A DNA stretch of 64,000 bases from Deltaproteobacteria bacterium (GCA_013349295.1 DUZW01000002.1:1-64000), one strand, 5' to 3'; counted from the stretch's first letter, positions 37,930 to 43,208 are shown. A program made the numbers and translations. The notes: a model not told the origin generated them from the letters alone.

Positions 37930-38047
37930 ATAACGCAACAGCGCCAAGACGCTAACTTTTTTGTTTTGTTCTTTGCGTCATTGTGCCTTTACGTTATATT
38001 GAAGGAAATCATTAAATTCCCAAATGAAAATCCCAGGAGATTATTGC

Positions 38048-41000
38048 ATGTTTGAAGAATGGCAACGCTTGGAGCAGGACGGAATCCCGGTGTATGTGCA
38101 GCCGGAAAAGCCGGACTGGTTCGTGCCGGATCACGAAGCGGATTGCCTGTTGCAGGAGTTGCGGCACGGGGAAAATTGTCGAGCCGATAACGCGCTTTCC
38201 GAAAAAAATCTCGGCGACCGGATGCTGGCGGCTCAGCAGCTTATCTCCCAGCTTGCTGCAGGACCAGCCGCCCCCTACAGGGGCCGGCACTCGCTTCTCA
38301 CCCTGGGCAGCCTGAAGGAATGCTGGTTTCATCTCACCGACCGGTGCAATCTGGCCTGTCGCCATTGTCTGTTCGCCTCTTCCCCGGCCCAAGCCGCTAC
38401 CCTTTCCCCGGAAGCCCTGACTCAAGCCATTGGTGAGGCCAAGGGACTGGGCTGCACCCTGTTTTATTTCACCGGGGGCGAACCCTTTGTCTTCCCGGGT
38501 TTTGTCGGGATGGTTTCTGAATTGCTTGGTGATCCCAAAATCCATGTGGTGGTTCTCAGCAATGGTCTCTTGATCAGGGAGCACCTTGCCGAGCTGGCGA
38601 CTCTGCCCAGGGAGCGTTTTCATTTGCAGCTCAGCATGGATGGCCTGGCCGAGCAACATGAGAATCTCCGGGGAAAAGGTACCTTTGCCGGGCTGCTGGA
38701 AAGCCTGGGCTTGCTCCAAGAGTTGGGTTTTCCCCTGACCCTGTCCGTGGCGGTGAACCGGGGCAATGTCCGGAAACTGGCCGAGATTGTTGCCTTTGGC
38801 GCTGACCAGGGGGTCGGCAATATCCATTTGCTCTGGCATTTTATCCGGGGCAAGGGCAGTCTGGAGCAGTTTGTTTCCCCGGATATGATTCTTCCCGAGT
38901 TGATCCGAGCCCAGGAGATGGCAGAGAAAATGGGGGTGCGCATCGACAATGTGGAATCCCTGCGCAGCCAGGTGTTCAGCACCCCCTCCACCCGGCATGA
39001 CCTGTCCAACACGGCCTGGGAGTCGCTGGCCGTGGGGCCGGACGGGCTGATCTACCCCTCCCCCGCCCTGGTGGGGATTGCCGCCTTGGCCTGCGGCGCC
39101 CTCACCGAAGGTCTGGAAACGGTCTGGCGGCATAGCCCGGTTCTGGAGATGATCCGCAAGGCAACTCTTGCCGAAAGCGAGGTTTATCGGGCCAACCCCC
39201 TCCGTTTTCTGGTGGGCGGCGGCGATTTGGATCACAGTTATCTGGCCGGAGGCAGTCCGGTCGACCACGACCCTTATGTGGAGCTATACAATGGCTTGGC
39301 CCTCTGGCTGATCTGCAAGCAGGCCCGCCAATACCCCGTCCGGACAAAGGGCGAGCTTCTGCTTCGGATGGGCGAGGTGCGCCACGATTGCCCGGACGGT
39401 GGCCGGGAGGTGGCTCTTACCCATTGCAACTGCGTAATCTCTCTCTCCGATGACCAGGGACACTCCACAGTGCGGGAGTTTTATGGCCGGGCCGCGCTCA
39501 CGGCCAATGAGGAGATCGTCAATCCCTTTGCCCCGGATCAGGCCCTGGCCAATTTCATTCCGGCGGATTCCCGGAAGAAATCCTATGGCTGCGGCAGCCC
39601 GGTCCGGGATGCCGCGCCGCAACCCGGCGAGGTGCTGGTGGACCTGGGAAGCGGCAGCGGAGTCGAGTGCTTCATGGCCGCACCCCAGGTGGGGCCATCC
39701 GGCAGAGTGATCGGCATCGACATGACCGACGAGATGCTCCATCTGGCCCGTGTGGGCAAGGCCACGGTGGCGAGCCGACTGGGCTATGACAATGTGGAGT
39801 TCAAAAAGGGCTTCCTCGAAGACATCCCCCTGCCGGACTCCATGGCCGGCGTGGTGATCTCCAACTGCGTCATAAACCTGAGCCCGGACAAACGCCAAAC
39901 CCTGCATGAGATCTTCCGGATCCTCAAACCAGGCGGTCGGCTGGTGGTGTCCGATATTGTCACCGACGGTCCCATTCCGGTGACCATCAAGAATAACGAG
40001 AAATTTCGGGGCGAATGCCTGGGCGGAGCGTTGCGGCAGGAGGATCTGCTGGGCATGCTCCGGGGGGCCGGTTTCGCCGGGGTCAGCCTGATCAAACGCT
40101 TTCCCTACCGGATCGAAGGCGAAACCCGCTTCTACTCCCTCACCTTCCGGGCCTATAAACCGGAAGAGATGCGGAATGTCGAAGTCATCTACCGTGGGCC
40201 CTTTGCCGCAGTGTGGACGGAAAGCGGCACCATGCTGCTCAAGGGGAGACGCGCGACCGTGGCCTTAAGCGAGGCGGAAAGCCTCGCCGATTCCATCTTT
40301 GTCCTTGATGGGCAGGGGGCGGTTTCCAACCTGACGCTTGCCGACAGTTGCTGCGCTCCTCCGGTCGAGCCCCCCCTGCTCCAGTCCAGCGGCAATTGCG
40401 GCTGCGTACAGGAGGAAAACGTGCCGGGCAAGATTGTCGCCCTTCCCGCCCTGCGTCCGCCAGCCGACGGTCGGCATCAGTCGGGCTGCATGGCCTGCGG
40501 CAAGGAGATCGGCTACCTCGCCCATGAACGGGAGGTGTCCTGCCACTATTGCGGAGGGGTCAAGAAAACCAATGCGCTCTGCGTTGAAGGCCATTATATC
40601 TGCGATGGTTGCCACCAGCAGGACGGCCTTTCCGTCATCCAGCTGCTCTGCGCCGAAACACAAGAGCAGGATATGTTGCTCCTTCTGGACACGATCCGCC
40701 GCCACCCTGCCATTCCCCTGCACGGTCCCGAGCATCATGCCATGGTCCCCGGCATCATCCTGGCCACCTACCGAAACCTGGGCGGCAAGATCAGCCGGGA
40801 AGCCATCCTCACCGGCATTGAGCGGGGCAGCAAGGTGCCGGGCGGGGTCTGCGGCTTCTGGGGTAATTGCGGAGCCGCTGCCGGAGTGGGCATCGCCTTC
40901 AGCGTCCTGCTCGAGGCCACGCCCCTCACCCCCAAAGCCCGTCAACAGGTGCAGGAGATCACCTCCCGGGTGCTGAGCGAGATCGCCCAAACGCAAGGGG

Positions 41001-41191
41001 CACGTTGCTGCCAGCGGGAAACCGTGACGGCCCTCAGGGAAGCGGCGCTTCTTTCCCATCGCCTTCTGCCGGTGCCGCTTTTGGCCGAGGCGGATTTTTT
41101 CTGCCGTCAGTATTCCGGCAACCGGGAATGTATCGGTGGACAGTGTCCTTTATGGAATAAGGCGGCGTTGCAAGCGGGCGGTGAAAAATGA
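38048..41191 (+). CDS. Radical SAM / ArsM-like methyltransferase / DUF5714-like fusion protein
   Basis: 1047 residues. After a short N-terminal domain, the radical SAM motif is C100-X3-C104-X2-C107 (CNLACRHC) with FTGGEP for SAM binding; the domain runs to about 370. The middle carries a class I methyltransferase (VLVDLGSGSGVECF from residue 529; NCVINLSPDK at 606) that closely resembles arsenite methyltransferase ArsM. It keeps the YGCGSP Cys (C515) and the ECLGGAL Cys (C657) that correspond to arsenic-binding Cys of ArsM as I recall them. The C-terminal 240 residues are Cys-rich (C814, C817, HYCGG, CGFWGNCGAAAG) and resemble DUF5714. Start ATG 38048 has CCAGGAGA upstream. The substrate is unknown; a metalloid or thiol substrate is plausible. 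Confidence 0.85.
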   Translation: MFEEWQRLEQDGIPVYVQPEKPDWFVPDHEADCLLQELRHGENCRADNALSEKNLGDRMLAAQQLISQLAAGPAAPYRGRHSLLTLGSLKECWFHLTDRCNLACRHCLFASSPAQAATLSPEALTQAIGEAKGLGCTLFYFTGGEPFVFPGFVGMVSELLGDPKIHVVVLSNGLLIREHLAELATLPRERFHLQLSMDGLAEQHENLRGKGTFAGLLESLGLLQELGFPLTLSVAVNRGNVRKLAEIVAFGADQGVGNIHLLWHFIRGKGSLEQFVSPDMILPELIRAQEMAEKMGVRIDNVESLRSQVFSTPSTRHDLSNTAWESLAVGPDGLIYPSPALVGIAALACGALTEGLETVWRHSPVLEMIRKATLAESEVYRANPLRFLVGGGDLDHSYLAGGSPVDHDPYVELYNGLALWLICKQARQYPVRTKGELLLRMGEVRHDCPDGGREVALTHCNCVISLSDDQGHSTVREFYGRAALTANEEIVNPFAPDQALANFIPADSRKKSYGCGSPVRDAAPQPGEVLVDLGSGSGVECFMAAPQVGPSGRVIGIDMTDEMLHLARVGKATVASRLGYDNVEFKKGFLEDIPLPDSMAGVVISNCVINLSPDKRQTLHEIFRILKPGGRLVVSDIVTDGPIPVTIKNNEKFRGECLGGALRQEDLLGMLRGAGFAGVSLIKRFPYRIEGETRFYSLTFRAYKPEEMRNVEVIYRGPFAAVWTESGTMLLKGRRATVALSEAESLADSIFVLDGQGAVSNLTLADSCCAPPVEPPLLQSSGNCGCVQEENVPGKIVALPALRPPADGRHQSGCMACGKEIGYLAHEREVSCHYCGGVKKTNALCVEGHYICDGCHQQDGLSVIQLLCAETQEQDMLLLLDTIRRHPAIPLHGPEHHAMVPGIILATYRNLGGKISREAILTGIERGSKVPGGVCGFWGNCGAAAGVGIAFSVLLEATPLTPKARQQVQEITSRVLSEIAQTQGARCCQRETVTALREAALLSHRLLPVPLLAEADFFCRQYSGNRECIGGQCPLWNKAALQAGGEK

Positions 41192-41865
41192 AGCAAGGAA
41201 AAGGGGTTGGCAAGGCGGTTGTTTTCGCGCTCTTCATTACCGGGATGATCGCCCTGTTTCGCTTTACCCCGGTGCGGGAATACATCTCGCCGGACTATCT
41301 GCAAGGCTTGGTGAACTCCTTTGGTCCATGGGGACCGCTGGCCTTCGTACTCCTGTATGCAGGGGGCATCTGTCTTTTTTTGCCCGCCACCCTGTTCACC
41401 GGCATCGGCGCCCTGCTTTTCGGCACTCTTCACGGGTTTATCTACAATGAATTGGGGGCCATGCTCGGCGCCTCCCTGGCTTTTTTCATCGGCCGCTATC
41501 TGGGCCGGGATTTTGCCGCGGGCATGATCGGCGACAGGCTGAAGAAATACGATGATCGGATCGCGGCCAACGGTTTTGCAACGGTACTCTATCTGCGGCT
41601 GGTTTTTTTTCCATTTACCCCCCTCAACTTCGGCATGGGGTTAACCAGGGTAAGCTTCAGGGAGTATTTTCTCGGCACCCTGTTCGGCATCATCGCCGGA
41701 GGCTTTATCCTCACCTTTTTCTTCGCCACCTTGGCCGAGGTCTGGAGATCCGGCGACTGGTCGCAGCTGGCGGGCTGGAAGACCTTCTTCTCCCTAGCCC
41801 TCTTTGTCGCCTCCTTTTTCATCCCCCGGGTGATCCGGAAAATAAAGCCCGAAGGTGCAAGTTAA
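41188..41865 (+). CDS. TVP38/TMEM64 (DedA-superfamily) membrane protein
   Basis: 225 residues, about five to six hydrophobic segments. It carries the SNARE-associated/VTT signature (FIGRYLGRDFAAG, LYLRLVFFPFTPLNFGMGLT). It overlaps the fusion gene by 4 nt (ATGA), so co-translation is likely. Many arsenic or mercury operons carry a TVP38 protein, and VTT proteins can be lipid scramblases or transporters. An export or lipid role is inferred only from neighbourhood. Confidence 0.88.
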   Translation: MKQGKGVGKAVVFALFITGMIALFRFTPVREYISPDYLQGLVNSFGPWGPLAFVLLYAGGICLFLPATLFTGIGALLFGTLHGFIYNELGAMLGASLAFFIGRYLGRDFAAGMIGDRLKKYDDRIAANGFATVLYLRLVFFPFTPLNFGMGLTRVSFREYFLGTLFGIIAGGFILTFFFATLAEVWRSGDWSQLAGWKTFFSLALFVASFFIPRVIRKIKPEGAS

Positions 41866-42783: not shown

Positions 42784-42971
42784 TGAGGGGATAGCGTTTT
42801 TTTTTCGTAATTGTTTATTTTTTCTTTACTCGAACGATGGGCGGAGGTATATGACGTATATTTGTCATCCCCTGACTGAGGGAGGAGTTGGACGGGTGAT
42901 CCGAACATGATCACTACCAAGCGTAATGCGCATTGTCGCAATTATTAAAACACAAACCGAGGAAAAGAACC

Positions 42972-43208
42972 ATGAAGTCAGTAAAAACCACCGTTGCCCT
43001 TGCCCTGATGCTGCTCCTTGCCACCGGCATGATCGCTTGCAAGAAAAGCGAAGAAGCAGAAGTAGTTGCTCCTGTTGAGCAGACCGCTCCCGCTGTTGAG
43101 CCTGCCGCACCCGTTGCTCCGGCTCCCGAGGCTGCTGCTCCTGCTGCTCCGGAAGCTGCTGCTCCGGAAGCTGCTGCTCCTGCTGCTGAAGCTCCTGCTG
43201 CAAAGTAA
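42972..43208 (+). CDS. Small Ala/Pro/Glu-rich lipoprotein
   Basis: 78 residues. Lipobox MIAC at about residue 20-23 after a short hydrophobic signal. The rest is a low-complexity tail of AAPEAAAP-type units without Lys-rich C-terminal anchor. The function is unknown; it may be a flexible periplasmic spacer or envelope linker. The repeats GCTGCTCCGGAAGCT recur in DNA, so the length may vary by slippage. Its terminator follows. Confidence 0.7.
   Translation: MKSVKTTVALALMLLLATGMIACKKSEEAEVVAPVEQTAPAVEPAAPVAPAPEAAAPAAPEAAAPEAAAPAAEAPAAK

Follow-up and report, generated by a model that had tools for sequence, protein, structure and literature searches.

A large share of the arsenic in marine organisms is present as arsenosugar-type compounds, and the known bacterial route to them rests on the methyltransferase ArsM and the radical S-adenosylmethionine (SAM) enzyme ArsS. 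As cited in two papers (PMC12159101, PMC8552651), arsenic is adenosylated by ArsS, which acts in concert with ArsM. A radical SAM enzyme and an ArsM also form the carbon-arsenic (C-As) bonds in the biosynthesis of arsinothricin, where ArsL and ArsM are encoded by separate genes. Here, we consider a gene in a stretch of 64,000 nucleotides (nt) from a Deltaproteobacteria bacterium (GCA_013349295.1 DUZW01000002.1:1-64000), the whole of which is called the window. The gene encodes a single chain, below called the fusion, in which a radical SAM domain is followed by an ArsM-type methyltransferase and a cysteine-rich part with a DUF5714 domain. We assign a probability of about 0.55 to the reading that the fusion is an organoarsenical synthase in which one chain performs the tasks of both ArsM and ArsS; it appears to stand in place of the pair of enzymes with which other microbes build sugar-linked arsenic compounds. 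Arsenic as the substrate element is well supported, while adenosylation and the final product are what we infer.

In the ArsM and ArsS pathway of Synechocystis, as in the fusion, a methyltransferase with the same As(III) cysteines is combined with a CX3CX2C radical SAM enzyme, but the fusion unites the two activities in a single chain and adds a DUF5714 domain. In the fusion protein, Pfam finds Radical_SAM at residues 96-248 (2e-20), Methyltransf_31 at 526-671 (3e-29) and DUF5714 (PF18978) at 864-1036 (2e-60, 203.7 bits, above the gathering score of 26.2), and all three clear their cut-offs by a wide margin. The initial annotation had described a 1047-residue chain with these three parts, a radical SAM motif at residues 100-107, the ArsM hallmarks C515, C657 and NCVINLSPDK, and an overlap of 4 nt with a TVP38-type gene. 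Open reading frame (ORF) calls and Pfam bear out all of this, with the coordinates and motifs correct, and C100, C104 and C107 are the cysteines of the motif. It had also held the domain order to be unlike that of known enzymes, and indeed no single Pfam or NCBIfam model covers it; the two SAM-dependent steps that it placed in one chain are likewise supported.

For the methyltransferase (METHYLTRANSFERASE), the nearest solved structures by sequence are those of algal ArsM and human AS3MT, with 1e-38 for 5evj. The whole chain was modelled with AlphaFold2 (mean pLDDT 80), and the predicted fold of the methyltransferase part is a clear match to ArsM in Foldseek searches, with 4fr0, 6cx6, 5evj and 8xt7 (ArsM/AS3MT) as hits. 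C515, C607, which lies within NCVINLSPDK, and C657 align with Cys72, Cys174 and Cys224 of CmArsM, that is, with its As(III) ligands. The NCBIfam model PRK11873 gives 227.8 bits over residues 491-697 (1.6e-67), which is below its cut-off of 263 bits, and the domain is therefore filed as ArsM-type, outside the subfamily of that model. A search of the window's own genome revealed no further close ArsM-like match besides the fusion.

A search of the genome collection returned 80 related loci with 43-86% identity, nearly all with the whole fusion, mostly from Desulfobulbales and for the rest from contigs or metagenome-assembled genomes labelled Eisenbacteria, Myxococcales and Planctomycetota. With this many loci from separate genomes, a chance fusion or an assembly artefact is ruled out. 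Conservation of cysteines was assessed in 81 aligned sequences, with a further check on 38 rows. C100, C104, C107, C515, C607 and C657 show no variation in any sequence that spans them, so that the loss of ArsM-type cysteines in relatives, which would have spoken against an ArsM-like function, is not seen for any of the three ligands (81/81). C448, C462, C541, the ribbon cysteines and nearly all DUF5714 cysteines are likewise invariant where covered. In the plasmid collection, 221 records have partial matches and none covers 80% of the query; among the matches listed, most are ArsM genes and one is a DUF5714 gene.

The strongest clue to a role in arsenic metabolism comes from the arsenosugar-type glycosyltransferases and from the mutual exclusion between the fusion and ArsS. 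In a survey of 297 genomes of the phylum, where ArsS was defined by a TIGR04167 score above cut-off, ArsS was present in 85 genomes and the glycosyltransferase TIGR04282 in 134 (45%). The fusion was present in 24, i.e., 23 genomes together with G209, where the gene is apparently cut by the contig end. All 24 have TIGR04282 (P = 1.5e-9 against 134/297 overall), which is also found in the genomic company of ArsS, and none of them has ArsS, with P about 1e-11 for the exclusion within TIGR04282 genomes. At the level of families, 14 of 95 contain the fusion and 46 contain ArsS, and none contains both (P = 3e-5). In a second set, made up of 47 fusion genomes that are partly of the same species as the first and of which three are labelled as other phyla, ArsS occurs in none and TIGR04282 in 42, and a profile search of the window's own genome found no ArsS above the TIGR04167 cut-off. 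As a control, two genomes with standalone DUF5714 only (G123 and G151) do carry ArsS, so that the exclusion is a property of the fusion rather than of DUF5714. This mutually exclusive distribution suggests that the fusion and ArsS have the same role, and that their overall job is the same is argued because it is an ArsM-bearing protein that replaces ArsS in the same genomic setting. Many ArsS genes of the phylum contain an in-frame TGA (e.g., in G088, G135 and G172), which likely encodes selenocysteine.

Linkage can be seen at shorter range as well. TIGR04282 lies at most 10 kb from the fusion in 8 of the 24 fusion genomes, where 0.16 would be expected (P = 3e-12). In divergent Desulfobacterota, the fusion stands beside TIGR04283 and TIGR04282 glycosyltransferases, both scoring above the cut-offs of these models, a VTT membrane protein and a MerA/Lpd-like flavoprotein. 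To exemplify, the order is GT2-GT1-fusion-VTT-Lpd in locus L117, while in L135 a GT1-GT2 pair precedes a split version with one radical SAM-methyltransferase gene and one DUF5714 gene, and in L078 (Myxococcales) a GT1 homolog comes directly after the fusion. In the window's own genome, a TIGR04282 and a TIGR04283 gene are adjacent to each other.

The fusion is not itself a member of the ArsS family. The best match of TIGR04167 (cut-off 300 bits) in the window's own genome has an E-value of 6e-13 and falls below the cut-off, and the listed fusion proteins reach about 50-60 bits, with matches confined to the generic core. In a tree of radical SAM domains, ArsS forms its own clade with 100/100 support, which includes neither the fusion nor its unfused relatives; the fusion group, including a protein from G016, is weakly supported (45/43). 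The radical SAM domain is thus ruled out as a true ArsS by both score and tree; it is of a SPASM-type lineage separate from ArsS, and the case made here is for a supported functional analogue of ArsM plus ArsS. In the predicted structure, the radical SAM part folds like the SPASM enzymes SkfB, SuiB, PqqE and anSME (Foldseek; best TM 0.75, to anSMEcpe). Of the related radical SAM proteins that do not belong to the fusion family, 6/6 have Cys at positions 320, 338 and 393, but the fusions have Ser, Thr, Gly, Ala or Asp there, with no Cys among the residues tallied. Since these auxiliary positions are replaced, the auxiliary Fe-S cluster is likely to be missing, probably through loss, which would fit a radical addition that proceeds without a second cluster. 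Unfused radical SAM relatives of about 520 residues with intact SPASM cysteines occur at L169-L173 (G268, G154, G127, G099 and G022), in or near TIGR04282/TIGR04283 clusters and in genomes without ArsS; they may form a third variant of the pathway. A 778-residue radical SAM-ArsM fusion without DUF5714 but with the SPASM cysteines (L174:7456-9792, G016) possibly reflects an earlier step in the evolution of the fusion.

Two unlikely alternatives, of similar standing, take their starting point in this domain. In the first, the radical SAM domain makes another C-As bond, for instance by transfer of 3-amino-3-carboxypropyl as in ArsL, and the ArsM part methylates the product, which would resemble arsinothricin. 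Burkholderia gladioli provides a precedent for such a combination of ArsL and ArsM, and a single Fe-S cluster is proposed for ArsL (PMC8552651); the fusion likewise lacks the auxiliary ligands of its relatives. NF040538, the model for arsinothricin ArsM, does match part of the methyltransferase domain, but with 178 bits against a cut-off of 500, and the arsinothricin ArsM is of a different subfamily. Furthermore, neither glycosyltransferases of the arsenosugar type nor DUF5714 are known from the arsinothricin pathway, and it is ArsS that the fusion stands in for in the surveyed genomes, where no search was made for ArsL. In the second, arsenic is methylated and sequestered only, with the radical SAM domain acting on the protein's own cysteines or on a peptide and DUF5714 storing metal. 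The likeness to the peptide-modifying SPASM enzymes, the N-terminal segment that resembles a RiPP recognition element (RRE) in the AlphaFold2 model, and the presence of the "metal-binding" selenoprotein MbdU among DUF5714 relatives (PMC13188914) would fit this, but the SPASM auxiliary ligands are missing, and both the link to glycosyltransferases and the exclusion of ArsS would be left unexplained. A role as maturase of ribosomally synthesized and post-translationally modified peptides (RiPPs) was rejected, as no recurrent neighbour resembles a precursor or hints at a peptide substrate (ORFs under 60-70 residues were not clustered). Pfam finds no match in the N-terminal segment.

The C-terminal part has its closest described counterparts in ArsM selenoprotein fusions and MbdU (NF041536, NF041537, NF047649 and NF045648, tabled in PMC13188914). 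In the former, as here, ArsM is joined to thiol or selenol domains, and MbdU holds the same cysteine-rich/DUF5714 part; none of these models, however, includes a radical SAM domain, and the fusion uses cysteine instead of selenocysteine, its ORF having no in-frame TGA. The MbdU model NF045648, with two selenocysteines and a cut-off of 600 bits, gives the fusion 127.5 bits. The predicted structure of DUF5714 with the ribbon is mainly helical (pLDDT 87, pTM 0.83); a Foldseek search of the DUF5714 model against the PDB gave no match with E < 0.3, and the best result of structure comparison was a VIA Z of 4.7. Standalone DUF5714 genes adjoin a radical SAM gene in L139/L140. The initial annotation had proposed arsenic, selenium or an organothiol as substrate; by context the arsenic part stands, while selenium and organothiols have gained no support. 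That the true substrate is another soft element or an organothiol (selenium, mercury, antimony) is improbable, even though some loci with a standalone DUF5714 gene show no obvious arsenic genes and MbdU takes its name from metal binding. All three As(III) ligands of ArsM are kept without exception, and this holds for the loci of other phyla too; ArsR-type regulators lie near standalone DUF5714 genes in L137, L145 and L147; and the protein that is replaced is ArsS. In G209 (L176:880-4390), moreover, the DUF5714 coding end at the contig edge is followed by ArsR-, ArsP-permease- and thioredoxin-type genes.

If the fusion is a single-chain synthase, the reaction could proceed as follows. As(III) would be bound by C515, C607 and C657 and methylated by the methyltransferase domain, probably to dimethylarsenite. 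A [4Fe-4S] cluster held by C100, C104 and C107 would cleave a further SAM, and the resulting 5'-deoxyadenosyl radical would be added to the methylated arsenic, as in ArsS. The cysteine-rich linker and DUF5714 may hand trivalent arsenic over from one site to the other or serve in its reduction. After loss of adenine, the deoxyadenosyl arsenical would be glycosylated by the two glycosyltransferases to give an arsenosugar, and the VTT protein may act at a lipid-linked or membrane step. We infer the order of methylation and adenosylation, the role of DUF5714 and the glycosylation and VTT steps. There is an even chance, in our estimate, that the fusion represents a second C-As-forming radical SAM family, apart from ArsS and with the auxiliary cluster lost, which by its fusion to ArsM and to DUF5714, an arsenic-handling domain of undescribed fold, brings methylation, C-As bond formation and transfer of trivalent intermediates together in one polypeptide.

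Several points weigh against a synthase that would combine the functions of ArsM and ArsS. The P values take no account of kinship between genomes, and the family-level figure is the most cautious of them. TIGR04282 was not found in 5 of the 47 fusion genomes of the second set, possibly due to incomplete assemblies, and about 31 genomes hold TIGR04282 without either ArsS or the fusion. The glycosyltransferase pair of the window's genome sits on another contig, unlinked to the fusion. Because the radical SAM domain is of another lineage than ArsS, its chemistry could differ, as in the 3-amino-3-carboxypropyl transfer of ArsL. The enzyme is known here from its genes and predicted structure. To our knowledge, the "arsenosugar" names of TIGR04282 and TIGR04283 derive from gene context, and we know of no arsenosugar demonstrated for these bacteria.

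Downstream, the product of 41188-41865 matches VTT_dom (PF09335; 7.9e-20, 72 bits, gathering score 33.9). DedA/VTT proteins are lipid flippases or scramblases (PMC10127716); the window protein has this common domain, but its gene is coupled to that of an arsenic enzyme. The membrane partner proposed in the initial annotation holds in part: VTT genes recur beside fusions in several lineages, whereas downstream genes of the window's own VTT type are confined to close relatives (those with a fusion identity of about 64% or more), and TVP38 as a constant partner was rejected. That the overlap is a functionally meaningless arrangement is possible but somewhat doubtful. In most Desulfobulbales that are more distant, the fusion is followed by mutM or by unrelated genes, but tblastn finds VTT within the fetched flanks of 17/80 loci, and a second VTT type, with only 26-30% identity to the first, adjoins the fusion in several other, separate lineages, usually with a MerA/Lpd-like gene. 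The link to VTT is thus real but patchy. A small Ala/Pro/Glu-rich ORF with the appearance of a signal peptide or lipoprotein lies downstream of mutM in the window (42933-43208).

The features are collected in Table 1. The fusion ORF is open from 38024 or 38048 through 41191, and 38048 is the preferred start because of the AGGAG upstream and because the ATG and leader are preserved in close relatives. The intergenic 22-mer, with an imperfect dyad (GGAAATcattAAATTCC) inside, is kept in close relatives, partly despite different upstream genes. It occurs once in its own genome, allowing up to 3 mismatches, which rules it out as an operator common to the fusion gene and the glycosyltransferase pair.

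Table 1. Features of the fusion locus, in window coordinates
Feature	Position	Strand	Basis
22-nt intergenic element ATTGAAGGAAATCATTAAATTC, candidate promoter or operator	37998..38019	+	identical in 8 close relatives
AGGAG ribosome-binding site for start 38048	38035..38039	+	sequence; region conserved in relatives
Fusion gene, 1047 residues: radical SAM, ArsM-type methyltransferase, zinc-ribbon/DUF5714	38048..41191	+	ORF call, Pfam, relatives
N-terminal beta-beta-beta-helix segment, residues 1-70, RRE/PqqD-like in appearance only	38048..38257	+	AlphaFold2 secondary structure
Radical SAM core, residues 91-270; CX3CX2C at residues 100-107 (38345-38368)	38318..38857	+	Pfam, invariant cysteines, Foldseek
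SPASM-like region, residues 318-400, without auxiliary-cluster cysteines (S320, S338, D393)	38999..39247	+	comparison with non-fusion relatives
Linker with C448 and C462, residues 438-470, common to relatives outside the fusion family	39359..39457	+	alignments
ArsM-type methyltransferase, residues 498-705; C515 (39590), C607 (39866), C657 (40016)	39539..40162	+	Pfam, NCBIfam, structure matches
C768-C769 pair in disordered linker	40349..40354	+	each kept in 79/80; pLDDT <50 at 764-807
Ribbon-like region, residues 814-855: CxxC pairs 814/817, 832/835, 852/855, and C845	40487..40612	+	invariant
DUF5714, residues 864-1036: HGPEHHA, CGFWGxCGAA, RCCQRE, CxQxxxNxECxxxxC	40637..41155	+	Pfam; structure model
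VTT/TVP38-type membrane protein, 4-nt overlap with end of fusion gene	41188..41865	+	ORF call, Pfam

If the fusion does provide an alternative route to arsenosugar-type compounds, this capacity would extend to many anaerobic sulfur-cycling bacteria that are missed by surveys based on ArsS. It would also offer a one-enzyme system for radical formation of C-As bonds and for the channelling of toxic trivalent methylarsenicals, as well as a first functional handle on DUF5714.

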